From NCBI RefSeq assembly GCF_013408685.1, contig NZ_JACBZY010000001.1, forward strand, positions 3,596,001 to 3,660,000: a stretch of 64,000 bases of DNA. The letters run 5' to 3'. Below the pieces are notes generated by a model that had not been told where the DNA came from, did not search any database, and was given only the letters and a program-made list of their open reading frames with translations. This DNA is from Schumannella luteola (lineage in GTDB: Bacteria > Actinomycetota > Actinomycetes > Actinomycetales > Microbacteriaceae). The position numbers were made by a program, and so were the translations under genes. Of this stretch, positions 6,519 to 57,706 are shown piece after piece; position 1 is the first letter of the stretch; each line of letters starts with the position of its first letter.

Positions 6519-8633
<2,115 letters not shown>

Positions 8634-17531: not shown

Positions 17532-17981
17532 TTAGCTCATGACGCCGGCGTTGCAGGTGCCGGTCGCGATCGCCTTCTTGTCGGAGACGGCGAACCGCGT
17601 GCCCGAAGCGCTGACAGCAGTGATGCAGAAGCCGCCGTTCGAAGCCACGACCGTGATCGCGGGCAGGTCGCCGGCCGTCGCGCTCTTGTAGTTCGACGCG
17701 TCCGACTGGGTGTAGCCCTGGCCCTCGAGTCCGGTGAGCGCGGTCGGGTAGTTGCCGTCCTGGGTGTACTTGGCCACAACAGCGGTCTTGGCGTTGCCGA
17801 GGTCCGACTTGACGGCCGAGTCCTTCGCGTTGTTCTGAACGCCGATGTAGACGGGGATCGCGATCGCGGCGAGGATGCCGATGATGATCACGACGACGAG
17901 CAGCTCGATGAGCGTGAAGCCCTTGTCGCCGTTCTTCACGCGGTCCATACGGGCCGCCAGGATGTCCTGGATGCGGGTCAT
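17532..17981 (-). CDS. pilA: Major type IV pilin
   Basis: 149 aa. A basic 21-residue leader ends in Gly, then FTLIELLVVVIIIGILAAIAIPVYI, the textbook N-methylated pilin helix with Glu5. Mature length 128 aa. The globular domain has LGNAKTAVVAKYTQDGNYPTAL and two C-terminal cysteines (GGFCIT, GTCNAG) expected to form the D-region disulfide. It has its own promoter and terminator between pilC and the minor pilin genes, consistent with high expression. Called the major pilin on that layout; the second pilin at 25.5-25.9 kb is an alternative. Confidence 0.9.
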   Translation of the reverse strand: MTRIQDILAARMDRVKNGDKGFTLIELLVVVIIIGILAAIAIPVYIGVQNNAKDSAVKSDLGNAKTAVVAKYTQDGNYPTALTGLEGQGYTQSDASNYKSATAGDLPAITVVASNGGFCITAVSASGTRFAVSDKKAIATGTCNAGVMS

Positions 17982-18053: not shown

Positions 18054-18098
18054 AAGTTATTGGCGTGTCTGCCGGCCCGGAATCCCGCGGATGGGGGT
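18054..18098 (-). promoter_or_regulatory. pilA promoter with C5...G3 box
   Basis: On the minus strand ACCCCCATCCGCGGG (18098-18084) begins 38 nt before a TAACTT -10 box (18059-18054). Spacing matches the promoters of the tandem surface-protein genes. Caution: the box overlaps the hairpin that probably ends pilC transcription. Confidence 0.5.
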
Positions 18099-18115: not shown

Positions 18116-18142
18116 TCCCCAGTCCGGGGGCAGGCGATCCGG

Positions 18143-21650: not shown

Positions 21651-23315
21651 TCAGGCGACGACGCGGAGAATCTCTTCGATCGACGTCAGGCCCGCCTGGG
21701 CCTTCTGCCATCCGTCCATGCGCAGGGTGCTCATACCCTGGCTGATCGCGATCTTGCTGATCTCGGCGCTCGAGGCGCGGGACACGGCCATGCGCTCGAT
21801 GTCCTCGCTGACCGACATGATCTCGTGCAGCGCCAGACGGCCCCGATAGCCGGTGTTGCTGCAGGTCGAGCAGCCGACCGGCATCCACAGCTCCGGCGCG
21901 GGCTGCGTCGGGTCGGTGGTGAAGCCCAGTCGGTGCAGGTCTTCCGGATCGTGCGCGTACGGCTGGCGACAGCGCTCGCAGAGCCGGCGCGCCAGACGCT
22001 GAGCGACGACCGAGTCGAGCGCCGATCCGACGAGGAAGGGCTCGATGCCCATCTCGGTCAGACGGGTGATCGCGCTCGGCGCGTCGTTCGTGTGCAGCGT
22101 CGACAGCACGAGGTGACCCGTGAGCGACGCCTCGATCGCGATCTGCGCCGTCTCGTGGTCGCGGATCTCACCGATCAGCACCACATCGGGGTCGGATCGC
22201 AGGATCGACCGCAGCGCGCTCGCGAAGGTGAGGCCCGCCTTGACGTTGACCTGCACCTGGTTGATGCCCGGCATGCGGTACTCGACCGGGTCCTCGACCG
22301 TGATCACGTTGATCTCGGGACGCACGACCGCGTTGAGCGTCGTGTAGAGCGTCGTCGACTTGCCCGAGCCGGTCGGGCCGGTGACGAGGATCATGCCGTA
22401 GGGCTTGGTGTAGCTGTTGCGGTAGATCTCCGCGTTGCGCGGGGTCAGCTGCAGCTGGTCCATCGACACGCTCGTGTTCGAGTTGTCGAGGATTCGCATG
22501 ACGACCTTCTCGCCCCACACCGTAGGCAGGGTCGCGACGCGCAGGTCGATCTGACGACCGCCGTGACGCACCGACAGGCGGCCGTCCTGCGGCTTGCGCC
22601 GCTCGGCGATGTCGATGTCGCTCATGATCTTGAGGCGCGAGATCACGCCGTTCTGGATGTTCTTGGGCGCCTTCTGCATGATGTGGAGCACGCCGTCGAT
22701 GCGGTAGCGCACCGTCAGCTCCATCTCACCGGGCTCGATGTGGATGTCGGAGGCGTGGTCCTGGATGCCCTGGCTGATCAGCAGGTTCACGAAGCGCACG
22801 ATCGGCGCGTCGTCTTCGAAGGCGTCGGCGACGGCGACATCCGTCGACGCGTCGCTCTCCTCCTGGATGAGGCCCTGCAGCTCGCTCAGCTCGCCGTCGG
22901 CGCGGTGGAACTTGTCGATCGCCGTCATCAGGTCGCCGCGCTCGGCGACGACGGCCTTGACGCGCAGACGAGCGGCGGCGCGCACGTCGTCGAGCGCGAG
23001 CACGTTGCCCGGGTCGGCCATGGCGAGCGTCAGCTGGTCGCCCTGCACCGAGAGCGGCAGCACCTCGTAGCGGCGGCAGACGGCGGCCGGCACGAGTGCG
23101 ACGGCGGCCTGCTCGACCGGGTAGTCGAGAAGCTCGACGAAGGCGAGGCCCATCTGGGCTGCGCGCGCCGAGGCGAGGGAGGCGGGCGTGAGAACGCCCT
23201 CCTCGAGAAGACGATTGACGACGGCGGCCTCGTCGTAGTCCGGCTGATACACCGCATCGATGCTGGTGATCGGCATGAGGCCGCGGATGATGAGAATCTC
23301 GGCAAGGGAGGTCAT
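21651..23315 (-). CDS. pilB: Type IV pilus extension ATPase PilB
   Basis: 554 aa, normal length. Hexameric ATPase that powers pilus extension. N1D/MshEN-type domain at the start (MTSLAEILIIRGLM...LLEEGVLTPASLASARAAQMG), Walker A GPTGSGKST near residue 313, VITVEDPVEYRM, Walker B VVLIGEIRDHETA, and the zinc-binding tetracysteine CERCRQPY...CSTCSNTGYRG characteristic of PilB/GspE. First gene of pilB-pilT-pilC, with its own promoter upstream. The MshEN-like N-terminus may bind cyclic di-GMP in this family; that is not established here. Confidence 0.96.
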   Translation of the reverse strand: MTSLAEILIIRGLMPITSIDAVYQPDYDEAAVVNRLLEEGVLTPASLASARAAQMGLAFVELLDYPVEQAAVALVPAAVCRRYEVLPLSVQGDQLTLAMADPGNVLALDDVRAAARLRVKAVVAERGDLMTAIDKFHRADGELSELQGLIQEESDASTDVAVADAFEDDAPIVRFVNLLISQGIQDHASDIHIEPGEMELTVRYRIDGVLHIMQKAPKNIQNGVISRLKIMSDIDIAERRKPQDGRLSVRHGGRQIDLRVATLPTVWGEKVVMRILDNSNTSVSMDQLQLTPRNAEIYRNSYTKPYGMILVTGPTGSGKSTTLYTTLNAVVRPEINVITVEDPVEYRMPGINQVQVNVKAGLTFASALRSILRSDPDVVLIGEIRDHETAQIAIEASLTGHLVLSTLHTNDAPSAITRLTEMGIEPFLVGSALDSVVAQRLARRLCERCRQPYAHDPEDLHRLGFTTDPTQPAPELWMPVGCSTCSNTGYRGRLALHEIMSVSEDIERMAVSRASSAEISKIAISQGMSTLRMDGWQKAQAGLTSIEEILRVVA

Positions 23316-23411: not shown

Positions 23412-23458
23412 ACAGTAGGGCCGCGTGTCGTGACAGCCCATACCCGCCTTGTGGGGGT
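23412..23458 (-). promoter_or_regulatory. pilB promoter with C5...G3 box
   Basis: On the minus strand ACCCCCACAAGGCGGG (23458-23443) begins 40 nt before a TACTGT -10 box (23417-23412), about 90 nt before pilB. It shares the sequence ATTACCCCCA with the pilA box and the TACTGT with the surface-protein gene at 51420. Confidence 0.5.
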
Positions 23459-25477: not shown

Positions 25478-25933
25478 TCAGCTGCAGGCGCCGGAGGCCA
25501 CGCCGCCCTTCTCGGTCACCGAGAAGGTCGTGCCGGTGGGGCTCGTCGCCCAGATGCAGAAGTTCGCGGCGTTGCTGGCGGGCTTGGTCGACCCGGCCCA
25601 CTGCGGCGCCTTGCCGGAGGGGTACTCGACACTCACGCCGCTGTAGCCGAAGGTGCGCAGCGTGCTCGTGTCGAGCGTCGACGGGAACTGCCCCTGCGTC
25701 GTGATCGAGTAGGCGATCGCCGCCGACTTCGCGGCCGTGAGGTCGGTCTTGACCCCGCCGTCCTTCGCGCTGTTCTGGGCGCCGATGTAGACCGGGATCG
25801 CGATCGCGGCGAGAACGCCGATGATCACGACGACGATGAGCAGCTCGATGAGCGTGAAGCCGGCGTCATCCCGCGTGGTCGCGCCGACGGTGCGGTCGCG
25901 CAGCCCGAGCCGCGCACGGTGCACTGCACCCAT
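25478..25933 (-). CDS. Second type IV pilin
   Basis: 151 aa. Leader of 25 residues ending in Gly, then FTLIELLIVVVIIGVLAAIAIPVYI with Glu5; mature protein 126 aa. Helix continues as GAQNSAKDGGVKTDLTAAKSAAIAY, closely parallel to PilA (GVQNNAKDSAVKSDLGNAKTAVVAK), so the two are paralogues. Two cysteines (NFCIWATS and GACS at the very end) occupy the same places as in PilA. The ATG at 25933 follows AGGGGGAA; the longer frame upstream is not leader-like. Has its own promoter region and stands 2.2 kb upstream of pilB. Either an alternative major pilin or an abundant minor pilin. Confidence 0.9.
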   Translation of the reverse strand: MGAVHRARLGLRDRTVGATTRDDAGFTLIELLIVVVIIGVLAAIAIPVYIGAQNSAKDGGVKTDLTAAKSAAIAYSITTQGQFPSTLDTSTLRTFGYSGVSVEYPSGKAPQWAGSTKPASNAANFCIWATSPTGTTFSVTEKGGVASGACS

Positions 25934-26019: not shown

Positions 26020-26079
26020 AGAGTAGGCGAGCAGTGCTCGACCACGGCAGTCCCCGTGCGGGTCTCCCCCGAGCGGGGT
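26020..26079 (-). promoter_or_regulatory. Promoter region of the second pilin gene
   Basis: A TACTCT -10 box (26025-26020) is preceded on the minus strand by ACCCGCACGGGG, whose first C is 37 nt upstream, and by a fuller palindrome ACCCCGCTCGGGGG whose first C is 53 nt upstream. Similar boxes precede pilA, pilB and four surface-protein genes at 38-40 nt. Confidence 0.4.
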
Positions 26080-46625: not shown

Positions 46626-48641
46626 TCAGACCCGCAGGTCGAGCCACCCCACCTCGGCCGGGCTCAGCTCGATCGCGAGGGCGGCGAGCGACGACCGCGT
46701 CTCGTCGAGCGTGCGCGGACCGATCAGCGGGAAGGTCGGGAAGGGCTGCGCGAGCACGTAGGCGAGCGCGATCGCCGTCGGGGCGACGCCGCGCTGCTCG
46801 GCCAACTCGCGGGCGCGGCGCAGCCGCTCGAAGTTGCCGTCGCTGTAGTAGCAGCGCACCAGCTCGGGGTCGCTGACGTCGGCCGGATCGGCGCGCGCGA
46901 AGAAGCCGCGCGCCTGCGACGACCACGGGAACAGCGGCGTCTGTGTGCGCTCGAGCCACTCCTTGGATGCGGCATCGGTCGCGCGCTCGCAGCCCTCCCA
47001 CGGCACGTCGAGCGCCTCGGCGAGACCGAAGTGATTGCTCAGCACCGTGAATCCGCGCCGGCCGTTCGCCTCGGCGTAGGCGCGGGCCGCATCCATCCGC
47101 GCCGGTGTCCAGTTCGAGCCGCCGAAGGCGCCGATGCGGCCCGCGCGCCAGTGCTCGTCGAGTACGTCGACGAACTCGCCGACGGGCACCTCGGGGTTGT
47201 CGCGGTGCAGGAAGTAGAGGTCGGCGCGGTCGGTCTGCAGCCGGTCGAGGCTCTCGTGCAGCTGGCGGGTGACCGACTCGGGATCGCAGTGCGGCGTGTG
47301 GGCGCCCTTGACGATCAGGGCCAGCTCGTCGCGGATGCCGCGCTGGCGCATCCACTCGCCCACCAGCCGCTCCTGGCGGCCCTGCGCGTAGACCCAGGCG
47401 GTGTCGATCACGGTGCCGCCGTGCTCGACGAAGTCGTCGAACATGACGGCGGCCTGCCGCAGGGTGGTCTGGTTGTCGGCGCCCATGACGAGGCGCGACA
47501 GCGGCACCCGCACGCCCTCGACGGCGCCCATCGGCATCGTGCCGCGGCTCGCACGGCGCAGCGGCTCGCCCGAGACGGGCGAAACCGGGGCGTCGGCACG
47601 CTCGCTCGCGTAGACGGCGCCGATGCCGTGCCGCCAGCGGCGCTCGAGCTCGGCCATCGCGGTGCTGTGCGACCAGGGCACGAGCGACGACTCGAGGTCG
47701 CCGGCGGCGGCCGCGGCGGCGAGCGCGTCGGCCTCGCCCGCGTACTGCGCGAAGGGCGGGAAGACGAGCTTCTGATCGGGGGCGCCCGGGCGCTGCAGCA
47801 GTGCGTGCACGGGGCGCTCGGGGTGGGGCGTCCACGGATCGGCGAGAGTGAGGATGCCGCCCTCGCCGACCACGCGCACCTGCGACTCGAGCTGGATCGA
47901 CACCGCGCATTCGAGCTGGGCGGTGAGCGCCGGCGCTCCGTCGTCCGCCGCCGGCAGCACGACCGTCATCGCCGCCCAGCGGTCGACGCCGTTCTCGTCG
48001 GCGCGACCTGCCGTGTCGACGCGCGCCGCGGCGAGCGCCGCCGGGTCGACGCGGTGACCCGCCGCATCCGCCACCAGGGTGAGCGCCGACAGGGTGTAGC
48101 AGCCGACGTCGAGCACACCGCCGCCGGCGAGCTCGGGCAGCGTGATGCGCGAGGGCTCGTCGCCGCCCGCGAAGCCGAAGCGGGCGGAGACCGACAGGAT
48201 GCGGCCCAGCTCGCCGTCGCGCAGCATCCGCTCGAGCGCACGCCACTGCGGATGGGCACGGTGCATGAACGCCTCGAGCAGCACGACGCCGTTCTCGCGG
48301 GCGGCCTGCTGCACGGCCATCGTGTGCGCCGGATCGGCGGTGAGCGGCTTCTCGACCAGCACGTGCTTGCCCGCGCGCGCCGCCCGGATCGCCCACTCCG
48401 CGTGCTGCGGATGCGGCGTCGCGACGTAGACGGCATCCACCGCCGGGTCGGCGAGCAGGTCGGCGTAGGAGCCGTGCGGAACCGGCACGTCGTCGAACTC
48501 GGCCGCGAACTCCCGCGCCCGGGCCAGATCGCGGCTCGCGATCGCGACGAACCGCCCCGTCGCGCTCAGCGGCAGCTGCCGTGCGAAGGCGCGGGCGATT
48601 CCGCCGGCGCCGATGATGCCCCACCCCGTCGTGTCGGTCAT
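46626..48641 (-). CDS. Fused Gfo/Idh/MocA oxidoreductase and aldo/keto reductase
   Basis: 671 aa, two enzymes in one chain. Residues 1-about 345: Gfo/Idh/MocA fold with nucleotide loop WGIIGAGGIARAF, VYVATPHPQHAEWAIRAARAGKHVLVEKPLT (EKP motif), and GGGVLDVGCYTLSAL. Residues about 370-671: aldo/keto reductase barrel with the catalytic set in VIDTAWVYAQG (Asp, Tyr), IVKGAHT (Lys) and YFLHRDN (His), and C-terminal cofactor segment PLIGPRTLDETRSSL. Both parts use NAD(P)(H) and probably act on one sugar or polyol by successive steps; this is inference. The ATG is 7 nt after TAGGCT, leaderless, and that promoter-start unit is repeated four more times upstream. Confidence 0.9.
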   Translation of the reverse strand: MTDTTGWGIIGAGGIARAFARQLPLSATGRFVAIASRDLARAREFAAEFDDVPVPHGSYADLLADPAVDAVYVATPHPQHAEWAIRAARAGKHVLVEKPLTADPAHTMAVQQAARENGVVLLEAFMHRAHPQWRALERMLRDGELGRILSVSARFGFAGGDEPSRITLPELAGGGVLDVGCYTLSALTLVADAAGHRVDPAALAAARVDTAGRADENGVDRWAAMTVVLPAADDGAPALTAQLECAVSIQLESQVRVVGEGGILTLADPWTPHPERPVHALLQRPGAPDQKLVFPPFAQYAGEADALAAAAAAGDLESSLVPWSHSTAMAELERRWRHGIGAVYASERADAPVSPVSGEPLRRASRGTMPMGAVEGVRVPLSRLVMGADNQTTLRQAAVMFDDFVEHGGTVIDTAWVYAQGRQERLVGEWMRQRGIRDELALIVKGAHTPHCDPESVTRQLHESLDRLQTDRADLYFLHRDNPEVPVGEFVDVLDEHWRAGRIGAFGGSNWTPARMDAARAYAEANGRRGFTVLSNHFGLAEALDVPWEGCERATDAASKEWLERTQTPLFPWSSQARGFFARADPADVSDPELVRCYYSDGNFERLRRARELAEQRGVAPTAIALAYVLAQPFPTFPLIGPRTLDETRSSLAALAIELSPAEVGWLDLRV

Positions 48642-48975
48642 GCACGTCAGCCTAGGGACCGCATCCGCCTCAGCATCGGCACGGATGCCACCGACTCACC
48701 TCGCGACCGTGTCGGTCATGCACGTCAGCCTAGGGACCGCATCCGCCTCAGCATCGGCACGGATGCCACCGACTCACCTCGCGACCGTGTCGGTCATGCA
48801 CGTCAGCCTAGGGACCGCATCCGCCTCAGCATCGGCACGGATGCCACCGACTCACCTCGCGACCGTGTCGGTCATGCACGTCAGCCTAGGGACCGCATCC
48901 GCCTCAGCATCGGCACGGATGCCACCGACTCACCTCGCGACCGTGTCGGTCATGCACGTCAGCCTAGGGACCGCA
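48631..48975. repeat. 78-bp tandem repeat array, 4 full units and one partial
   Basis: Units begin at 48631, 48709, 48787 and 48865, essentially identical, with a partial fifth at 48943-48975. On the minus strand each unit contains TAGGCT, 7 nt, ATG and then ACCGACAC, the true start of the oxidoreductase gene in the unit at 48631. In the other units the ATG opens a seven-codon frame (MTDTVAR) ending at TGA. The period is a multiple of three, so long artificial frames cross the array. No spacers, hence not CRISPR. Confidence 0.95.
48649..48654 (-). promoter_or_regulatory. Leaderless promoter (-10 TAGGCT) of the fused oxidoreductase
   Basis: TAGGCT at 48654-48649, 7 nt, then ATG at 48641. Further copies of the same hexamer lie at 78-nt intervals upstream in the array, so up to five start points are possible. 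Confidence 0.6.
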
Positions 48976-49207
48976 CGCGACTCCGCGTCGGAGCCGAGCG
49001 GCTCGGCGAGCGGCTCGGCGAGCGGCTCGGCGATCGGTCGCGCCGGTCGCACCATCGCGCGCGTTCCTCAGGGCTGGCACGGATCCCGCCGCGCCGACGG
49101 CAGGGGGATAGTCGGCACACCTGAGGATTCGAAGTCTCTTCTGTGCACGCCGTGCCGGCGCTCTCCCCTCCCCCCGGGGTCCGGCTGACTCTCCCCCACT
49201 CGTCGAT

Positions 49208-49231
49208 GGCGGACGCACCGCCAGAACGGCA
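49208..49231 (+). promoter_or_regulatory. Pre-start hairpin and AGAACGGCA element, surface gene 1
   Basis: GGCGG/CCGCC stem (49208-49212 with 49218-49222) followed by AGAACGGCA (49223-49231), 5 nt before the ATG. The same arrangement precedes the next three surface genes. AGAACGGCA resembles the extended Shine-Dalgarno sequence AGAAAGGAG with changes. Confidence 0.55.
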
Positions 49232-49236
49232 CAGAC

Positions 49237-51192
49237 ATGACCACGATGAAGAACGCCCTGACCGCGCTCGGAGTCGCCTCGCTGCTCGCGCTCACGTCCC
49301 TCGGGGCGGCACCGGCGCTGGCCGACGAGGTCGACCCCGGCGGCGCGGCCGCCACGCAGCAGCAGGCCGAGGCGGCGACGGCGCCGCCCGCCTACTCCCC
49401 CGCACCGATCGAGGCCCCCGCGGGCGATGCCGCCCCGGAGTCCGGCCGGGCGGCTGCGGCCGCACCCGATCCGGCGCCGTCTCCCGACCCGCAGCCCGAA
49501 CCGGACGCGAAGGCGGCACCCGACCCGGCGTCGAAGCCGGCACCCGACGCACCGCGCGACGGCCCATCCGCCTCCCCGTCGTCCAGCCCCTCGGCGACAC
49601 CCTCGGGTTCGCCGTCCGAACCGCCGCGCGAGGGCCGGCCGCCGACCGCGCCCCGGGGTCTCTCCGGCGCCTACAGCGTCGACGAGGCCGGCCAGGCGCA
49701 CGTCACCGTCACGTGGAAGGCCCCGGCCGATCTCGGCGTCACCGGCTCGAACGGGGACCCCGAGGGAGGTCAGGGCCGATCGAGCTTCCTGTTCCAGGTC
49801 TCGTTGACCAGCGGACCGGGCTCGCCGCAGACCGTCACCCTCGAGGCCGACGAGGCCTGGAACGACAGCCCGGAGGAGCCGCTCAGCTGGACGCGCGTGT
49901 TCGACGTCCCGGCGACGGCCGGGGCGAGCTGGACGGTCGCGGTCGACGCGAGCAACGACGGCGGCCAGACGACAGGACCGGCTGCGACGACGACGGTGAG
50001 CAGCGCCCCCGCACCGCGGGCGCCGAGCGCGCCGACCGCGGTGGTCGGCGTCTACGGACTCGACGAGGACGGCGACGCGCACGTGGGCGTGACGTGGCGG
50101 GCGCCCGCCGACCTGGGCGTCACCGCCGCGAGCGACGATCCCGAGGGCGGTCAGGGTCGATCGTCGTTCCTGTTCCGGGTGACACTCGTCAGCGGCCCCG
50201 GTGCGCCGCAGACCATGACCTTCGACGCCGACGAGGTCTGGGGCGACTCGCCGAGCGGTCCGCTCAGCTGGTCGCGCGGCTTCGACGTGCCCGTCAGCCC
50301 CGGCGAGACCTGGAGCGTCGCCGTGGAGGCGAGCAACGACTCCGGCCAGAGCTGGGGCCCGGCTGCGTCGACGACGGTCGTCTCGCCGCTCGTGGGCGAG
50401 AGCGAGGTGGATGTCGCGATCACCTCGGCGACCGCATCCGGCCACCACTCGCCGACGGTCTCGGTGAGCTGGAGCGCCAGCGGCACGGAGCGCGTGGGGT
50501 CGTGGATCGTGGTCGTCGCGAACGTCGACGCCACCACCCTCGGCGAGGTCGTCGTCGCGGCCACCCGCGTGCCGGCCGCGGCCCGCACGGTGACGCTGCA
50601 CGGCGGGGAATCACTGACGGAGCTCGGTCTGACGGTCGGCGGCAAGCCGCTGCCGAACGACGCCCGGCTCGTCGTGGTCGTCGTCGCGGAGGGTCCCGAT
50701 CTCGAGGCGCTCGGCGCATCCGCTCCCGTGCTGGTGACGACGCCGTCGTCGACGCCGCCGCCGCCTGCCGCGCCCAGCGGCTCGAGCACGGGCGGCGTGA
50801 CCGCCACCGTGTCGGGCTCGACGATCACGGCCCGCGTGCCCTCAGCGAAGCCGGGCGAGTGGGTCTACGGCTACGCCTTCTCGAGTCCGATCGGACTCGG
50901 CTGGGCGCAGGTGACGAACGCCGGCACCGCATCCTGGAGCCTGGCCGGCGCCGGCCTCGCGAACGGCGCGCACCAGCTCGCGGTGCTCGCCGACGACGGA
51001 TCGGTGCTCGGCTCGTCCGCGTTCTCGGTCGGCGTCGCCCCGGCGGCCGCGAACGACGCGGCGACGCGTGCCCAGCTGGCCAGCACCGGCGCCGACCCGA
51101 CGGCCCCGCTCGGCGCGGCCGCGCTGCTGGTGCTCGGCGGATGCGCGCTCGTCGCGCTGCGCCGGGCGAGGTCGGCCCGCAAGCAGACCTGA
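49237..51192 (+). CDS. Wall-anchored surface protein 1 (LASTG sorting signal)
   Basis: 651 aa. Signal peptide at residues 1-30 (NALTALGVASLLALTSLGAAPALA), a Pro/Ala/Ser/Asp-rich stalk to about 130, two similar fibronectin-type repeats (each with WKAPADLGVT or WRAPADLGVT, DPEGGQGRSSFLF and SNDGGQ/SNDSGQ), a third domain, then the shared C-terminal domain (GGVTATVSGSTITARVPSAKPG ... GYAFSSPIGLGWAQV). Ends in LASTGADP, a hydrophobic helix and RRARSARKQT, a class E-type sortase signal. An alternative ATG lies three codons in. Unlike its four followers it lacks the CCCC/GGGG box upstream. Confidence 0.88.
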   Translation: MTTMKNALTALGVASLLALTSLGAAPALADEVDPGGAAATQQQAEAATAPPAYSPAPIEAPAGDAAPESGRAAAAAPDPAPSPDPQPEPDAKAAPDPASKPAPDAPRDGPSASPSSSPSATPSGSPSEPPREGRPPTAPRGLSGAYSVDEAGQAHVTVTWKAPADLGVTGSNGDPEGGQGRSSFLFQVSLTSGPGSPQTVTLEADEAWNDSPEEPLSWTRVFDVPATAGASWTVAVDASNDGGQTTGPAATTTVSSAPAPRAPSAPTAVVGVYGLDEDGDAHVGVTWRAPADLGVTAASDDPEGGQGRSSFLFRVTLVSGPGAPQTMTFDADEVWGDSPSGPLSWSRGFDVPVSPGETWSVAVEASNDSGQSWGPAASTTVVSPLVGESEVDVAITSATASGHHSPTVSVSWSASGTERVGSWIVVVANVDATTLGEVVVAATRVPAAARTVTLHGGESLTELGLTVGGKPLPNDARLVVVVVAEGPDLEALGASAPVLVTTPSSTPPPPAAPSGSSTGGVTATVSGSTITARVPSAKPGEWVYGYAFSSPIGLGWAQVTNAGTASWSLAGAGLANGAHQLAVLADDGSVLGSSAFSVGVAPAAANDAATRAQLASTGADPTAPLGAAALLVLGGCALVALRRARSARKQT

Positions 51193-51205
51193 GTCGTCGA
51201 CTCGG

Positions 51206-51239
51206 GAACGGGGTCGATCCTCCGGGGTCGGCCCCGTTC
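51206..51239 (+). terminator. Terminator of surface gene 1
   Basis: 12-bp stem with one G-T pair (51206-51217 with 51228-51239), 10-nt loop, 13 nt past the stop. Confidence 0.75.
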
Positions 51240-51279
51240 GTCGCGCGTCGCACCCGTCGCCGATGACGACGGATATTCA

Positions 51280-51324
51280 CCCCAGTACGGGGCGTACCGA
51301 CTTGTGCACCGCCCTGCCTACTGT
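51280..51324 (+). promoter_or_regulatory. Promoter of surface gene 2 with palindromic box
   Basis: CCCCAGTACGGGG (51280-51292) begins 39 nt before the -10 box TACTGT (51319-51324), followed by CTGAGAAA at the presumed start of transcription. Confidence 0.6.
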
Positions 51325-51390
51325 CTGAGAAAGCGCTGTGTCCGGGTCGCCGTCGGCGATCGGACACGCGCGGACTCCCTTTCGCATCAT

Positions 51391-51414
51391 GGCGGCTGCA
51401 CCGCCGGAACGGCA
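51391..51414 (+). promoter_or_regulatory. Pre-start hairpin and GGAACGGCA element, surface gene 2
   Basis: GGCGG/CCGCC stem (51391-51395 with 51401-51405) then GGAACGGCA (51406-51414), 5 nt before the GTG start. Confidence 0.55.
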
Positions 51415-51419
51415 CTCAC

Positions 51420-53285
51420 GTGAAGAAGACGACCACCGGCCTCCTCGGCCTGGGCGTCGCCACCGTCCTCGCGCTCTCGCCCCTCGGGGCGACGATCGCG
51501 CTGGCCGACGGCGACACTCCCGCGGACACGACGACGAACACGACGTCGAACAGCTCCGCCTCGACCACCACGACCGACTCGAGCGACACGACGACGACGC
51601 CGACGCCCGACACCTCGAGCGGCCAGTCCGGCTCGACTCCCCCGGCATCGAACTCGGGCGACGAGGCGCCGCCGGCCGGCGGGGTCACCGACCCGAACGC
51701 GGGCGGGAGCACCGGCGCCGGGAACACCGACCCCGGCGACGCCGGCACCGGCACCCAGCCTCCGACCTCGAACGAGCAGGACCCCGTCGTGAACGCGCCC
51801 GAGAAGGCGCCCTCGCGACCCGGCTACGTCTACGGCTACTGGTCGGCCGACGGCCCCACCCTCTGGGCGCAGTGGCTGACGCCCGCCGAATCGGGCAGCT
51901 CGCCGCTGGCCGAGTACCACGTGACGATCACCGATCGGGCCGACGCGAGCGACGCGCAGACCGTGACCGTGCCCGCTGACGCACCGGCCGGCAGCCTGTG
52001 GTGGAACGGCGCGCCCTTCACGGTCGCCGCCGGCTACGACAAGGTCTGGGACATCTCCGTCACGGCCGAGAACGAACAGGGCCTCGTCAGCGAGGTCGCC
52101 ACCGGCACCGGCTTCTCGCCGGAGTCGCCGCGTCCACCGAGCGCGCCGCTCGGCGTCGAGGGCGCGTACAGCGTCGACGACGAGGGAAGCGCATCGGTCA
52201 CCGTGAACTGGAGCCAGCCCGACGACTGGGGCGTGACTGACGGGGACATCCACCCGACCTTCACGTCGATCGACATGTCGCGCGACCTCTACCGCGTGAC
52301 GCTCGACAGCGGCGACGGCCTGCCGCAGGTCGCCATCGTGCCGGCTCGCCAGCTCATCCCCGTCGCGCGGGGCGCCATCTTCGGCAGCAGCTACACCTTC
52401 TCCGTCGCCCGCGGCTACGACCAGACCTGGGATGTCTCGGTCGAGGCCAGCAACGACGGCGGCGCGACCTGGGGCGACGCCGGAACCGGCACCGTGTCGT
52501 CGCCCGACGGCGTGACCGTGTCGATCACCTCCGCGACGACCTCCGGCTACCGCGTGCCGACCGTCTCGGTGAGCTGGGATGCGACCGCCGACGAGCGAGT
52601 GAGCTCGTGGCTCGTCGCGGTCATCAACCCGGCCGCGCAGAACAGCGGCGACGCCTTCTACTCGGTCGTGCGCGTGCCGGCCGGCGCGACGTCGGCGACC
52701 CTGCGCGGCGGCGAGAGCGTCGACGTCTTCGACGAGACGCTCGGCGGCCGCAGCCTGCCGAACTCGACCGAGCTGTACGTGCTCGTGCTCGCCGAGGACG
52801 AGAACTCCGACGTGCTCGGCAGCTCCGATGTGGCGACCGTGACCACGCTGAGCTACGCCCCGCCGGCTCCCGTCGAGCCGACCGCCGCCAGCACCGGCGG
52901 CGTGACCGCCTCGGTGACCGGCACGACCATCACCGCCGTCATCCCGGGCGCGAAGCCCGGCCAGTGGGTGTACGGATGGGCGTTCTCGAGCCCGGTCGGC
53001 CTCGGCTGGACCCAGGTGTCCGACGCCGGAACCGCGTCGTGGAGCATCGCCGCCGCCGGACTGGCGAACGGCACGCACCACCTCGCGGTGCTGGATGAGT
53101 CGGGCGCGCTCGTCGGCTCGGCCGCGTTCACGGTCGGCGTCGCGCCGGCCGCCGTCACCACCGCGCAGCTCGCGAGCACCGGTGCGGACGCCTCGGCTCC
53201 GCTCGGCGCCGCCGCGCTGCTCGTGCTCGCCGGCGTCACGCTGGTCGCGCTGCGTCGCGTGCGCACGGTGCGCTCGCACGGCTGA
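51420..53285 (+). CDS. Wall-anchored surface protein 2 (LASTG sorting signal)
   Basis: 621 aa. Signal peptide MKKTTTGLLGLGVATVLALSPLGATIALA, a Thr/Ser/Asp-rich stalk to about residue 135, two fibronectin-type domains (APEKAPSRPGYVYGYWSADG ... and APLGVEGAYSVDDEGSASVTVNWSQPDDWGVT), a third domain (VSITSATTSGYRVPTVSVSW) that also occurs in protein 1, and the shared C-terminal domain (WVYGWAFSSPVGLGWTQV). Ends in LASTGADASAPLGAAALLVL and a basic tail RRVRTVRSHG. GTG start. Paralogous to protein 1 across the last 300 residues; role at the cell surface unknown. Confidence 0.88.
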   Translation: MKKTTTGLLGLGVATVLALSPLGATIALADGDTPADTTTNTTSNSSASTTTTDSSDTTTTPTPDTSSGQSGSTPPASNSGDEAPPAGGVTDPNAGGSTGAGNTDPGDAGTGTQPPTSNEQDPVVNAPEKAPSRPGYVYGYWSADGPTLWAQWLTPAESGSSPLAEYHVTITDRADASDAQTVTVPADAPAGSLWWNGAPFTVAAGYDKVWDISVTAENEQGLVSEVATGTGFSPESPRPPSAPLGVEGAYSVDDEGSASVTVNWSQPDDWGVTDGDIHPTFTSIDMSRDLYRVTLDSGDGLPQVAIVPARQLIPVARGAIFGSSYTFSVARGYDQTWDVSVEASNDGGATWGDAGTGTVSSPDGVTVSITSATTSGYRVPTVSVSWDATADERVSSWLVAVINPAAQNSGDAFYSVVRVPAGATSATLRGGESVDVFDETLGGRSLPNSTELYVLVLAEDENSDVLGSSDVATVTTLSYAPPAPVEPTAASTGGVTASVTGTTITAVIPGAKPGQWVYGWAFSSPVGLGWTQVSDAGTASWSIAAAGLANGTHHLAVLDESGALVGSAAFTVGVAPAAVTTAQLASTGADASAPLGAAALLVLAGVTLVALRRVRTVRSHG

Positions 53286-53301
53286 GCTTCAGCACAGCGA
53301 G

Positions 53302-53331
53302 ACGGGGTCGGTCCCTCGGGGCCGGCCCCGT
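53302..53331 (+). terminator. Terminator of surface gene 2
   Basis: Stem of about 11 bp (53302-53312 with 53321-53331), 17 nt past the stop, close in sequence to the terminator of surface gene 1. Confidence 0.75.
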
Positions 53332-53354
53332 TCGGCGTCTCCGGCGACGATCCG

Positions 53355-53398
53355 CCCCCGTTCGGGGGATGCCCGCGCGTGGCGAGCATCCCTAATGT
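53355..53398 (+). promoter_or_regulatory. Promoter of surface gene 3 with palindromic box
   Basis: CCCCCGTTCGGGGG (53355-53368) begins 38 nt before TAATGT (53393-53398), followed by CTGAGAAAA. Confidence 0.6.
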
Positions 53399-53464
53399 CT
53401 GAGAAAAGGCTGTGACCGACTCCGCCCGAATCGGCGTCGCCGGCCTTCCTCACCCGAAACCCGG

Positions 53465-53488
53465 CGGCAGCATGCCGTCAGAACGGCA
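53465..53488 (+). promoter_or_regulatory. Pre-start hairpin and AGAACGGCA element, surface gene 3
   Basis: CGGC/GCCG stem (53465-53468 with 53474-53477), then AGAACGGCA (53480-53488), 6 nt before the GTG. Confidence 0.5.
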
Positions 53489-53494
53489 CCCGAC

Positions 53495-54688
53495 GTGAAC
53501 AAGAAGACGAACGGCATCCTCGGACTCGGCCTCGCCGCCGCGCTCGTGCTCTCGCCGATCGGCGCGAGCATGGCGCTCGCGGTCGACGAGACCCCGACCG
53601 AGCAGCCGAGCACCAGCGCGAACCCCGACCTCGTCGTCGACGAGACGAACGACTCGAACGACGCGAACGAGGCGGTCGACACCCCCGGCTCCTCGGCCAG
53701 CCCCTCGGCCGCCCCGAGCCCCTCGACGAGCCCCAGCCCCTCCGCCGAGCCGAGCGACGACTCGGTCGACGAGGACGCCGGCGACGACGAGGACTCGGAT
53801 GACGAGAACTCCGACGGCGAGGACGCGAACGGCGTCACCTCGGTCACCGGCTACGGCTACCGCAACCCCGGCCTGCGAGTGACGTGGAACATCGTCACGA
53901 CGCCCTTCGACGACAACAGCGACATCGCCATCGACGGCTGGGCCGTCATCGTGGTGCGCGCCGCACCGTCGGTCGACGCGGCCGCCGATGACGAGGGCGA
54001 CGACGACTCCGACGACTCGAGCGAGGAGAGCCCGTTCGTCGGCGCCGCGTTCTTCCCGCGCTCCGCGACGAGCGGCGTCGTGCGCGGCGGCGGATCCGCC
54101 GAGGTGCTGACCGGCATCGACCCCGACGCGGGACAGGCGCTGCCGATCTCGCAGGCGCCCCTGGCCAACGACGCCGAGTACACCGTGATCGTCACGCCGG
54201 CGTACCACGGCCGAGTCGTCCCCGTGGGCCTGGCCTACGGCACCGGCACGACCCTCGACGCCACCCCGCCGGCCCCGGTCGAGCCGACGGCCGCGAGCAC
54301 CAACGGCGTCACCGCGACCATCAAGGACGGCGTCGTCACGGCGAGTCTGAACGGCGTCGCCGCGGGCACCGAGGTCTACGGCTACGCGTTCTCGACCCCG
54401 ACCGCGCTCGGCTGGGCGACCGTGTCGCCCACCGGCACCGCGAGCTTCAGCCTCGCGACCGCCGGACTGGCCGACGGCATCCACCACCTCGCCGTGCTCG
54501 ACGGCGACGGCAACGTGATCGGCACCGCCGCCTTCACCGTCGGAGCAACCAGCCCGACCGCGGTGCGCGCCCTCGCCGCGACCGGATCGGACGCGGCGCT
54601 GCCGCTCGGCGCCGCCGGGGCGCTGCTGCTCGCCGGCCTCACGCTGCTCGTCGTGCGCCGGGCGCGCGCGGCCCGCGCGCAGGGCTGA
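53495..54688 (+). CDS. Wall-anchored surface protein 3 (LAATG sorting signal)
   Basis: 397 aa. Signal peptide (ILGLGLAAALVLSPIGASMALA), a strongly acidic Asp/Glu/Ser/Asn stalk (about residues 30-115), one beta-rich domain of about 140 residues that includes a further acidic insert (AADDEGDDDSDDSSEESP), and the shared C-terminal domain (EVYGYAFSTPTALGWATVSPTGTASF). Sorting signal LAATGSDAALPL, hydrophobic helix, tail RRARAARAQG. Shares the VVRGGGSAEVLTG and PAYHGRVVPVG segments with protein 5, its nearest relative in the cluster. GTG start. Confidence 0.88.
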   Translation: MNKKTNGILGLGLAAALVLSPIGASMALAVDETPTEQPSTSANPDLVVDETNDSNDANEAVDTPGSSASPSAAPSPSTSPSPSAEPSDDSVDEDAGDDEDSDDENSDGEDANGVTSVTGYGYRNPGLRVTWNIVTTPFDDNSDIAIDGWAVIVVRAAPSVDAAADDEGDDDSDDSSEESPFVGAAFFPRSATSGVVRGGGSAEVLTGIDPDAGQALPISQAPLANDAEYTVIVTPAYHGRVVPVGLAYGTGTTLDATPPAPVEPTAASTNGVTATIKDGVVTASLNGVAAGTEVYGYAFSTPTALGWATVSPTGTASFSLATAGLADGIHHLAVLDGDGNVIGTAAFTVGATSPTAVRALAATGSDAALPLGAAGALLLAGLTLLVVRRARAARAQG

Positions 54689-54710
54689 GGCGAGCCGAGC
54701 CACCCGGCTG

Positions 54711-54765
54711 GCGACACGAAGGGGCCGGTCATCCGATGCGGATGGCCGGCCCCTTCGCGTGTCGC
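54711..54765 (+). terminator. Terminator of surface gene 3
   Basis: Long hairpin of about 25 bp with a few mismatches and a 5-nt loop, 22 nt past the stop. Its central part, GGCCGGTCATCC/GGATGGCCGGCC, is the same as in the terminator of surface gene 5. Confidence 0.85.
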
Positions 54766-54772
54766 CGGACCA

Positions 54773-54818
54773 CCCCCGAACGGGGGCATCCTCGCTCGTC
54801 TGCAGCGGGTGATTGAAT
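54773..54818 (+). promoter_or_regulatory. Promoter of surface gene 4 with palindromic box
   Basis: CCCCCGAACGGGGG (54773-54786) begins 40 nt before TTGAAT (54813-54818), followed by GAGCGAAA. The -10 is weaker than in the sister genes. Confidence 0.5.
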
Positions 54819-54892
54819 GAGCGAAACGGGAGGATCCTCACCTTCCGTATCAGCACTGAGACCGCATTCCGACACCGGAATATCTCGGCGAC

Positions 54893-54915
54893 GGCGAGCT
54901 CTCGCCAGAACGGCA
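54893..54915 (+). promoter_or_regulatory. Pre-start hairpin and AGAACGGCA element, surface gene 4
   Basis: GGCGAG/CTCGCC stem (54893-54898 with 54901-54906), then AGAACGGCA (54907-54915), 4 nt before the GTG. Confidence 0.5.
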
Positions 54916-54919
54916 TCCC

Positions 54920-56290
54920 GTGAACAGATCTCTCCGCGCCCTCCTGGGCGTCAGCCTCACCGCAGCCCTCGTCACCTCGCCGCTGGTCGCCACCGGCGCC
55001 CTCGCCGAGACGGCGGAGGGCAGTGGCAGCGCCGCGCAGACCCCCGCCGAGAGCGAATCGAACGTCGACGTCACCGCCGATCCCGCCGCGAAGTCGGAGA
55101 GCAGCGCCGGCGGCGCGAGCGGAGCCGGCAGCCCGAGCGGCGCCGGCGGCGCAGCCGTCGCCGCCGATCCTGCAGAGAAGCCCGAGGCGCCCCAGCAGGT
55201 CTACGCCGGCTTCGGCAGCGACCGCCCCTCGACGGCGCTCGCGGTCGGATGGGAGCTCGCGGCGGCCCCGGCGAGTTTCCGGGTCACCGTCACCCGGGCC
55301 GGCTCCCCTGCCGTGCTCGCAACCCAGGACTTCTCCGAGCCGGCACAGAGCGACGACGGCTTCTTCGCCGAGGAGACAGTCGAACTGCCCGCCGCCTGGG
55401 CCTACGGCGACGAGTTCAGCGTGACCGTGAACACGATCGGCTCCGATGGCGAGACCCTGAGCGACCCGAGCACCGTGACCGCCTACGCTCCGATCACCGC
55501 CTCGCCCGTCATCGTCTCCACGTCGTCGACGAACTTCCACGACCCGACCGTGGTGGTGAAGTGGAGCTACAGCACCCCGCGGCCGGAGACTCACGCCGGC
55601 TGGTACGTCAGCCTCACCCAGCAGGATCCCGGCGCCGACAGCGAGTCCGTCTACGCGGTCGACTACCAGATCGGTGCGGCGTCGCGATTCTTCTCGTTCT
55701 CGGAGATCAACCGGTATCACGCCGACGGCCGCGTCGAGCGCGGGCTGTCCATCCCGAACGGGATGACCTTCGACGTGCGCGTGTACCCCTACAGCAATGG
55801 CCCGGCGCCGATCGGCGAGACCGCCGAGGGTCAGATCACGACCTCCGCGATCCAGACCCCGCCCGCACCCGCCCAGCCGACCGGCGACACCTACGGAGTC
55901 ACCGCGAAGGTCAGCGGAAGCACGCTCACCGCCTACGTCCCGGCGGCGTCGCCCGGATCGTGGGTGTTCGGCTACGCGTTCTCGACACCGACCGGACTCG
56001 GCTGGGCCCAGGTCTCCGCCGACCGCACGGCGACCTTCAGCCTCGCCGGAGCGGGCCTCGCACCCGGCGTGCACCACCTCGCCGTGCTCGACAACACCGG
56101 CTGGGGCATCGGCTCGGTGGCATTCAGCGTCGGCACCGCCGGCGGCTCGACCGGGCCGACGCGCCTGGCCGAGACCGGCACCGAGGCGGATCTGCCGCTC
56201 AGCACTGCGATCGCGCTGCTGATCGCCGGCGCCGCGCTGATCACGGTTCGCCGTCTGCGTGACGCGCGCTCGGCACGCACGGAGGCCTGA
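54920..56290 (+). CDS. Wall-anchored surface protein 4 (LAETG sorting signal)
   Basis: 456 aa. Signal peptide (LLGVSLTAALVTSPLVATGALA), an Ala/Gly/Ser-rich stalk to about residue 90, a first domain (VYAGFGSDRPSTALAVGWEL ...), a second (SPVIVSTSSTNFHDPTVVVKWSY ...) and the shared C-terminal domain (WVFGYAFSTPTGLGWAQVSADRTATFSLAGAGL). Sorting signal LAETGTEADLPL, hydrophobic helix, tail RRLRDARSARTEA. Codon use and G+C at third positions are a little less extreme than in its neighbours. GTG start at 54920 begins MNRSLRALLG. Confidence 0.87.
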   Translation: MNRSLRALLGVSLTAALVTSPLVATGALAETAEGSGSAAQTPAESESNVDVTADPAAKSESSAGGASGAGSPSGAGGAAVAADPAEKPEAPQQVYAGFGSDRPSTALAVGWELAAAPASFRVTVTRAGSPAVLATQDFSEPAQSDDGFFAEETVELPAAWAYGDEFSVTVNTIGSDGETLSDPSTVTAYAPITASPVIVSTSSTNFHDPTVVVKWSYSTPRPETHAGWYVSLTQQDPGADSESVYAVDYQIGAASRFFSFSEINRYHADGRVERGLSIPNGMTFDVRVYPYSNGPAPIGETAEGQITTSAIQTPPAPAQPTGDTYGVTAKVSGSTLTAYVPAASPGSWVFGYAFSTPTGLGWAQVSADRTATFSLAGAGLAPGVHHLAVLDNTGWGIGSVAFSVGTAGGSTGPTRLAETGTEADLPLSTAIALLIAGAALITVRRLRDARSARTEA

Positions 56291-56318
56291 ACCACGGTCC
56301 GCACGTCACCGCGCGGAG

Positions 56319-56353
56319 GGACGGGTCGGACGCTCTCGAGCTCCGGCCCGTCC
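56319..56353 (+). terminator. Terminator of surface gene 4
   Basis: 12-bp stem with one G-T pair (56319-56330 with 56342-56353), 11-nt loop, followed by TTTC. Confidence 0.75.
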
Positions 56354-56364
56354 TTTCATGCTCA

Positions 56365-56409
56365 CCCCCGTTCGCGGGCGTGGACCGTCCGGTCCAGCTG
56401 GCGTAACCT
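56365..56409 (+). promoter_or_regulatory. Promoter of surface gene 5 with palindromic box
   Basis: CCCCCGTTCGCGGG (56365-56378) begins 39 nt before TAACCT (56404-56409), which runs into TGAGAAA. Confidence 0.6.
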
Positions 56410-56476
56410 GAGAAACCGCTGAGTTAGCGAGGAATCCCCCGGACTCGGCACCCCTGCATCACAGAGAAAGCACCCC

Positions 56477-57706
56477 ATGACGAAGATCAGCACCAGCCTG
56501 CTCGGGCTCGGCGTCGCCGCCGCGCTCGCGCTCTCGCCGCTCGGCGCCACCATGGCCTCGGCCGCGACGACCGCCGGCGACACGACCGGCGCGACCGGCG
56601 CCGAGTCCGGCGCGACCGGCACCGGAACCGGCACCCCCGACAGCACCGACAGCGGCAGCGACGCCGGCGGTCAGAGCGCTGCGGGCGCCGACGCCCCGAG
56701 CAACGACGCCGGCTCCGCCGAGTCGAGCGCGGGCTCCGGGACCAGCACGGCGGACACGACCGGGACGCCGACGGGCGCCGACTCGAACGCCGGGGACTCG
56801 CCCGACGCGAACGACCCGATCCCTGCCGATGAGGGCGACGGGGAGTTCGGCGACGGAGACCCCGACACGTCGGACTTCCCCGTGAAGATCACCTCGATCA
56901 CGCCGGTCGGCTACCACGACCCCGGCTTCACCGTCACCTGGACCGTCGACCCGGAGGCCCTCGATGAGTGGGCCGGCTACGTCGAGGGCTTCGCGGTGCT
57001 CGCCTACCAGCCGAGCGGTCTGGTCGACGGTCAGCAGACCTTCGCCGGGGTCGCCCAGGTCGGATTCGCCGCGGGCGGCGCCACCGTGCGCGGCGGCGGA
57101 TCGGCCAGTTACGTCTACGGCGGCGACGACGGCCCCACCCCGGCCACCATCACCCAGGCCCCGCTGCAGAACGGCATGCCGTACCAGGTGCTCGTGCTGC
57201 CGACCTACCACGGCTACCTGCTGCCCGCCGTCGTCGGCGCGGCCGAGGGCCGGACCAACAGCGGTGCTCCGTCCGCTCCCGCCGAGCCGACGAGTGCCAG
57301 CACGGGCGGCGTGACCGCCCAAGTCGTCAACGGGGCGCTCGTCGCGAAGGTTCCGGGCGCCGCCGCCGGCCAGTGGGTCTACGGCTACGCCTTCTCGAGC
57401 CCGGTCGGCCTCGGCTGGGCCCAGGTCTCCCCGACCGGCACCGCCACCTGGTCGCTCGAGAACGCCGGCCTCGCCGACGGGCTGCACCACCTCGCGGTGA
57501 TCGACGACTCCGGCGCGCAGATCGGCAGCTCCGAGTTCCGCGTCGGGGCCAGCCTGGCCGCCGCGGTCTCGCCGCGCACGCTCGCCTCGACCGGATCGGA
57601 CGCGGACCTGCCGCTCGGCATCGCCGCGGCCTTGCTGCTGGCGGGCGCCGCGCTGATCACGGTGCGCCGCGTGCGCGCGGTGCGCGCCATCCGCACGGAG
57701 GCGTGA
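56477..57706 (+). CDS. Wall-anchored surface protein 5 (LASTG sorting signal)
   Basis: 409 aa. Signal peptide MTKISTSLLGLGVAAALALSPLGATMASA, a long Thr/Gly/Ser/Asp stalk to about residue 130, one beta-rich domain (VKITSITPVGYHDPGFTVTW ... TVRGGGSASYVYGG ... LPTYHGYLLPAVVG) and the shared C-terminal domain (WVYGYAFSSPVGLGWAQVSPTGTATWSL). Sorting signal LASTGSDADLPL, hydrophobic helix and tail RRVRAVRAIRTEA. Uses ATG; upstream AGAAAG is closer to a standard Shine-Dalgarno than in the four sister genes, and the pre-start hairpin is absent. Confidence 0.88.
   Translation: MTKISTSLLGLGVAAALALSPLGATMASAATTAGDTTGATGAESGATGTGTGTPDSTDSGSDAGGQSAAGADAPSNDAGSAESSAGSGTSTADTTGTPTGADSNAGDSPDANDPIPADEGDGEFGDGDPDTSDFPVKITSITPVGYHDPGFTVTWTVDPEALDEWAGYVEGFAVLAYQPSGLVDGQQTFAGVAQVGFAAGGATVRGGGSASYVYGGDDGPTPATITQAPLQNGMPYQVLVLPTYHGYLLPAVVGAAEGRTNSGAPSAPAEPTSASTGGVTAQVVNGALVAKVPGAAAGQWVYGYAFSSPVGLGWAQVSPTGTATWSLENAGLADGLHHLAVIDDSGAQIGSSEFRVGASLAAAVSPRTLASTGSDADLPLGIAAALLLAGAALITVRRVRAVRAIRTEA

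Follow-up and report, generated by a model that had tools for sequence, protein, structure and literature searches.

A fixed-position C/G palindrome upstream of anchored surface-protein, type IV pilus and DUF2510 genes in Schumannella luteola, and its candidate regulator

In the 64,000-nt stretch of the Schumannella luteola genome analyzed here (the window; G000:C1:3596001-3660000, from a genome of 3.75 Mb in a single contig), four of five tandem genes for LAxTG-type surface proteins are preceded by a palindrome of four to five C and three to five G, hereafter the box, at a nearly constant distance from the -10 hexamer. The box is not confined to this cluster, and we judge it a genuine operator belonging to a broader surface regulon. 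We consider it probable that it acts as the activator operator of a surface regulon of the Microbacteriaceae, the most likely activator being a NarL/LuxR-type regulator linked to metX. The box provides a testable regulon tying together pili, anchored surface proteins and DUF2510 proteins, with one candidate regulator and relevance to much of the family, and suggests that a single regulator, possibly part of a two-component system, may switch several cell-surface parts together.

The products of the five tandem genes (49237, 51420, 53495, 54920 and 56477, named by their start positions) share a C-terminal domain and have the features of LAxTG-type anchored surface proteins, as all five, by eye, end in LASTG, LAATG or LAETG, then a hydrophobic stretch and lastly a basic tail containing RR. 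The NCBIfam model Microco_LAVTG matched all five below its cut-off, and a Pfam search of the five proteins gave no match. The original prediction placed the boxes of the last four genes 39, 38, 40 and 39 nt from the -10, and these distances were read back in the window at 51280, 53355, 54773 and 56365. The sequence right after the -10 is also alike, as had been claimed, being TGAGAAA in three promoters and TGAGCGAAA in the fourth; TGAGAAANNGCTG is present in exactly three copies in the window, all in this cluster, and the seven copies obtained with up to two mismatches correspond to the chance level. The stretch separating box and -10 had been described as not conserved, and the counterpart of the third promoter in S. 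soli (locus L025), the nearest named relative found, agrees: CCCCGAACnGGGG, TTGAAT and GCGAAAC are kept and the intervening stretch differs. One of the two cluster genes of S. soli carries the box by eye; a TANNNT-based scan listed none, because the -10 there is not of the scanned form, and such scans likewise missed the 54773 box because its -10 is TTGAAT. Gene 49237 has a one-mismatch box at 49167, 70 nt 5' of its start, with no TGAG-type element downstream, and no box at the target spacing before a -10 was found upstream of it. A scan of 51150-56480 for sigma-70-type promoters yielded no match, a weak result since only 0.1 was expected by chance.

The constant spacing had been put forward as the main argument against the trivial occurrence of C/G palindromes in G+C-rich DNA. 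Exact CCCC-N4/5-GGGG starts are found at 0.0005 per upstream nt, which for four genes by independent chance gives about 4e-11, a figure that is overstated because the genes are tandem paralogs and their -10s were picked by eye. A better test of chance is the spacing recovered with a position weight matrix (PWM) trained on 19 boxes of the pilus genes of relatives, none of them from the S. luteola genome or from the LAxTG cluster. Applied to 466 upstream regions from 854 kb of the S. luteola genome, the PWM at score 9 returned 10 box/-10 pairs, belonging to nine genes, at 38-42 nt before TANNNT, against 0.2 per 5 nt elsewhere, an enrichment that bears out the argument from spacing. The nine genes are 56477, 53495, pilB, the pilin gene at 17981, L010:6527, two DUF2510 genes in L019, L007:8539 and L005:8374; L010:6527 encodes a protein of surface type that has LASTG close to its end (by eye) and no NCBIfam match. 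In a simpler scan of 253 upstream regions (a 400 kb sample plus the window), the distance from C4-N5-G4 with at most one mismatch to TANNNT peaked at 37-41 nt, with 20 pairs compared with 2.5 per 5 nt at other distances; in this count a single box could enter more than once through overlapping registers. Within the window this peak takes in pilB (23315, minus strand) and the pilin gene (17981).

The pilus cluster of the window encodes PilB-, PilT- and PilC-type proteins, PilM, PilO, a prepilin peptidase and pilins; the box of the second pilin gene (25924) was found on allowing other box lengths. Matches to pilB were sought in 59 genomes, S. luteola included, and 30 loci were examined, 19 of the same family (again with S. 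luteola) and 11 of other families. A pilB box with at most one mismatch, centered 31-34 nt before TANNNT, is present in 16 of the 19 family genomes, the misses being G033, G008 and G031, and at none of the 11 loci of other families, where the best PWM score anywhere upstream was 9.7 (G056). This count was made without the PWM, and a PWM-based one is circular for 13 of the 16 sites, which belong to the training set (G000, G003 and G004 lie outside it); the relatives are not independent samples. When 17 pilB upstream regions were given to a Gibbs sampler with no prior, the top motif was the box, in the form ACCCCC-N4-nCGGGACTGT, with a score of 199.3 versus 150.3-160.6 for eight dinucleotide-shuffled sets.

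Ahead of the first pilin gene, 9 of the 13 family genomes with a match show the box, mismatched at no more than one position, at the same spacing (G000, G001, G002, G003, G004, G006, G008, G020 and, less clearly, G012). The box of G005 has two mismatches, and G010, G011 and G013 have none at the spacing; upstream of the G013 gene there is a box scoring 14.5 without a TANNNT. Moreover, seven of 12 pilin promoters scanned (G000, G002, G003, G004, G008, G012 and G020) possess a tandem second box 33 nt further upstream (33-34 in G020), that is about three helical turns, an arrangement that suggests possible cooperative binding.

Because DUF2510 genes turned up in the PWM scan, the analysis was extended to every DUF2510 match in the genome, 13 in total, four of which had been missed by the gene caller and were read by hand. 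A box with a score of at least 6 and TANNNT at 39-40 nt precedes six of the 13 (L196, L197, L199, L200, L201 and L202), compared with seven of 464 other regions (p 1.7e-7). Restricted to new cases, as L196, L197 and L202 were already known, the figures are 3/10 versus 7/464 (p 7.5e-4). DUF2510 genes are a further target class of the box. Separately, a 64-aa DUF2510 gene in L215 (6458-6652, minus-strand promoter) has three box-like palindromes upstream, at 6748-6860, one of them 40 nt before TATATT. Box-like palindromes, roughly equally far from a -10, were also seen ahead of the genes at L117:175-717 (minus strand) and L121:6341-6880 (plus strand), which encode similar proteins beginning WQ(L/F)GAHPDD.

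A regulator dedicated to the LAxTG cluster, as originally proposed, is not supported, since the box also stands before pilB, two pilin genes, L010:6527 and several DUF2510 genes. The cluster thus seems to belong to a broader surface regulon. The operators of class II-type activators of the NarL/FixJ (LuxR-type) group lie just upstream of the -35 region. The box is likewise found at a fixed distance adjoining the -35 region, 38-42 nt before the -10 in the S. luteola genome and with its center at 31-34 nt in pilB of the family. For the class II-type position of the original prediction, the fixed spacing, the independent pilus boxes and the conservation in the family all speak in its favor, and activation itself is predicted. 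The data thus support a putative activator-type operator, fixed in position just upstream of the -35 position. We propose that an activator, probably a phosphorylated dimer, would bind alongside RNA polymerase, at about -51 to -38, and would recruit it to promoters with a -10 but no recognisable -35, in class II-type activation. The operator would serve type IV pilus operons in the family, DUF2510 proteins in the S. luteola genome and LAxTG surface proteins in the genus, and the regulator would limit its own synthesis through a related box over the -35 region of its own operon. In this scheme the box, its spacing and conservation, and a similar box in the promoter of the regulator operon come directly from the sequences, and we infer the binding protein, the direction of regulation and the signal.

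GerE matches were obtained at 18 loci of the genome. The candidate at L113, a response regulator of 223 aa (G000:C1:2500213-2500884), follows two kinase-like genes, with metX, whose match is above the NCBIfam cut-off, located upstream. It combines Response_reg (2.6e-11) and GerE (3.2e-9) domains, the NarL/FixJ architecture, and its nearest solved relatives include DesR, ChrA, NarL and DevR. Neither kinase-like protein matches Pfam or NCBIfam; in the first an H-box-like LLHDTVLATLTL and an N-box-like motif were seen by eye. The kinase-like/regulator operon near metX recurs in most of the family stretches fetched; no regulator was called in L179 or L181, and L182, from another family, is arranged differently. 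Orthologs with at least 77% identity are present in 24 of 36 family genomes, namely in 18 of the 19 with pilB and 6 of the 17 without (p 2.3e-4), and the sole pilB genome without the regulator, G031, is also without the pilB box. Within the helix-turn-helix (HTH), ETAKSYLKRIREKY is unchanged in 22 aligned family sequences, up to three of which are possibly gapped there.

The promoter of the regulator operon in S. luteola contains GGCACCCCCATAAACGGGGACAGT, whose score of 13.7 exceeds that of every other LuxR-type operon promoter examined in S. luteola. Within loci of +/-1.5 kb no target-type box was found at the own promoter of LuxR-type genes, and that of the candidate is visible only in longer stretches. 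An ACCCCC-type palindrome was recognized by eye in 13 of 23 genomes (G000, G001, G002, G003, G004, G010, G015, G025, G026, G027, G030, G033 and G035, with a weaker one in G020), the count covering all 24 regulator genomes but G006. The PWM count covered 18 of the 24, leaving out G003 and G004, which nearly duplicate G000; G012 and G032, whose gaps are very short; and G006 and G021, in which the operon start was not called. A PWM score of at least 6 was reached in 8/18 versus 11% of ordinary regions (p 3.7e-4, the relatives not being independent), and CCCCC-N3-6-GG is present in 12/18 versus 10% of ordinary regions. The operon box begins roughly 23-27 nt ahead of a -10-like hexamer picked by eye and overlies the -35 position. 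This placement would fit autorepression and suggests a possible self-limiting autoregulation. A neighbouring regulator paralog in G025 carries a box located 41 nt 5' of TACACT. More tentatively, the metX-linked two-component system, with its two kinase-like proteins and NarL-type regulator, may be a master switch of the cell surface that turns on pili, DUF2510 and LAxTG proteins through one C4-5/G3-5 operator, cooperatively at the tandem pilin sites 33 nt apart and in a self-limiting manner; we would put this complete version at somewhat less than an even chance.

A number of observations weigh against the preferred explanation. The PWM scan did not pick the boxes at 51280 and 54773 or the second pilin box. 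The LuxR-type regulator L116, used as a control, is distributed much alike, in 17 of the 19 genomes with pilB and 5 of the 17 without (p 4.2e-4), and co-occurrence was rejected as proof of the regulator on this ground. The operon box mostly has another right half (GGTG, not CGGGACTGT) and low PWM scores, G008 and G022 are among the eight promoters scoring at least 6 by virtue of non-ACCCCC stretches, and 10 of the 23 genomes have no, a weak or a reversed operon box. In addition, G033 and G008 carry the regulator but no pilB box, and the regulator screen was confined to the LuxR class.

Some of these observations would also fit an operator of another regulator, whether LuxR-type, RamA-like or non-LuxR, with the kinase-regulator operon being a mere target or carrying an unrelated palindrome. 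This explanation, unlikely in our view but the most serious one, draws on the equally good co-occurrence of L116 and on the differing right half of the operon box, as well as on RamA of Corynebacterium glutamicum. In the excerpts of the source considered, RamA is a LuxR-type regulator of carbon metabolism with motifs given as A/T/C-GGGG-N and A/T/C-CCCC-N (PMC4847777). The likeness, judged from the motif description and not from the RamA sequence, is in the C4/G4 tracts as recognition units and the LuxR type; the motifs cited there are single tracts and the role is in carbon metabolism. Against another regulator stands the lack of a comparable box in the other LuxR-type operon promoters examined in S. 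luteola, the nearest being one of score 9.8 in L209, located 93 nt 5' of the first gene, and one of 7.6 in L217, located 92 nt 5' of the regulator L116. A repressor operator upstream of the promoter is improbable: the box in the regulator operon does cover the -35 region by eye, a repressor-like position, but at the targets it lies upstream of the -35 position at an unvarying distance, as activator operators do. Chance or inherited similarity, i.e., C/G palindromes of a 70% G+C genome copied with tandem duplicated genes, is scarcely credible, for although the genome is G+C-rich, the genes are paralogous and the simple one-mismatch box has a start frequency of 0.0035 per upstream position, in S. 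soli the spacer diverged while box and -10 were kept, unrelated genes share the spacing, and the PWM spacing test contradicts it.

With class II-type activators of the NarL/FixJ group, the preferred system of box and metX-linked regulator has in common the receiver and GerE-type HTH, the palindromic operator and the kinase-like genes in the operon; it differs in that the operator is C-rich and then G-rich around its center and the operon has two kinase-like genes. Two operators of actinobacterial regulators were compared from excerpts of the respective papers and ruled out by eye. The group I operator of BldM in Streptomyces, the 16-bp TCACcCgnncGgGTGA bound by a response regulator (PMC4125116), is similarly a palindrome with a CCCG..CGGG-like core, but was ruled out on width and outer half-sites, as the widest box here, CACCCCCGTTCTGGGGGTG of L010, measures 19 bp and has its outer CAC/GTG at a greater separation. 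The operator of OsdR/DevR is also a G/C-rich palindrome, of 16 bp (AGGGCCGATCGGCCCT), with a consensus deduced also from the regulator's own upstream regions (PMC5069765), but has G outside and C inside; it was ruled out on this reversed polarity. The BldM, OsdR/DevR and RamA operators are related in style to the box and not the same. In the competence system of Micrococcus luteus, a response-regulator mutation is reported in one paper to lower transformability; its text contains neither of the words LuxR and palindrom. Among the papers listed from the open-licence PMC literature, with subscription papers outside its scope, none dealt with a regulator of type IV pili in Microbacteriaceae. The mechanism is of a known kind, and the regulon and its candidate regulator appear to be new within the literature searched.

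Table 1. Boxes, -10-like hexamers and genes in the window.
Feature	Position	Strand	Remarks
LAxTG-type surface protein, 651 aa; first gene in the cluster, no box at 38-40 nt spacing	49237..51192	+	
Box CCCCAGTACGGGG, upstream of gene 51420	51280..51292	+	39 nt 5' of TACTGT
-10-like TACTGT	51319..51324	+	Window sequence
LAxTG-type surface protein, 621 aa	51420..53285	+	NCBIfam Microco_LAVTG below cut-off
Box CCCCCGTTCGGGGG, upstream of gene 53495	53355..53368	+	38 nt 5' of TAATGT; PWM 9.7
-10-like TAATGT	53393..53398	+	Window sequence
LAxTG-type surface protein, 397 aa	53495..54688	+	NCBIfam Microco_LAVTG below cut-off
Box CCCCCGAACGGGGG, upstream of gene 54920	54773..54786	+	40 nt 5' of TTGAAT; kept in S. 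soli L025
-10-like TTGAAT (not TANNNT), kept in S. soli	54813..54818	+	Window sequence, S. soli comparison
LAxTG-type surface protein, 456 aa	54920..56290	+	NCBIfam Microco_LAVTG below cut-off
Box CCCCCGTTCGCGGG, upstream of gene 56477	56365..56378	+	39 nt 5' of TAACCT; PWM 13.4
-10-like TAACCT	56404..56409	+	Window sequence
LAxTG-type surface protein, 409 aa	56477..57706	+	NCBIfam Microco_LAVTG below cut-off
Box CCCCCACAAGGCGGG, upstream of pilB	23443..23457	-	40 nt 5' of TACTGT (23417-23412); PWM 11.3
PilB-type pilus ATPase	21651..23315	-	Best NCBIfam match type_IV_pilB, 636 bits, cut-off 675.65; Pfam T2SSE, MshEN
Box CCCCCATCCGCGGG, upstream of pilin gene	18084..18097	-	38 nt 5' of TAACTT (18059-18054); PWM 11.2
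Second box CCCCCGGACTGGGG, 33 nt upstream of the 18084..18097 box	18117..18130	-	Spacing kept in relatives
Type IV pilin	17532..17981	-	Prepilin N-terminal domain above cut-off
Weaker box ACCCGCACGGGG, upstream of second pilin gene	26052..26063	-	38 nt 5' of TACTCT (26025-26020)
Second type IV pilin	25478..25924	-	Prepilin N-terminal domain above cut-off

The LAxTG cluster also has a common 5'-leader directly before the start codon, consisting of GGCGG-N5-CCGCC or a variant and then AGAACGGCA or a close variant (49205-49239, 51390-51422, 53465-53497 and 54890-54922 in the window, and upstream of 7443 and 9141 in L025); it is absent before 56477. With AGAACGGC or GGAACGGCA the leader was found in 4 of 758 sampled genes, all in the LAxTG cluster and including the box-less 49237. 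A cluster-specific leader element was rejected, as folding was no better than that of shuffles in six of seven leaders, and the similarity is therefore put down to shared ancestry or to an unusual ribosome site. Finally, just 5' of the cluster there is a perfect 78-bp tandem repeat (48630-48975; 4.4 copies, 100% matches), followed by a 12-bp repeat at 48995-49037.

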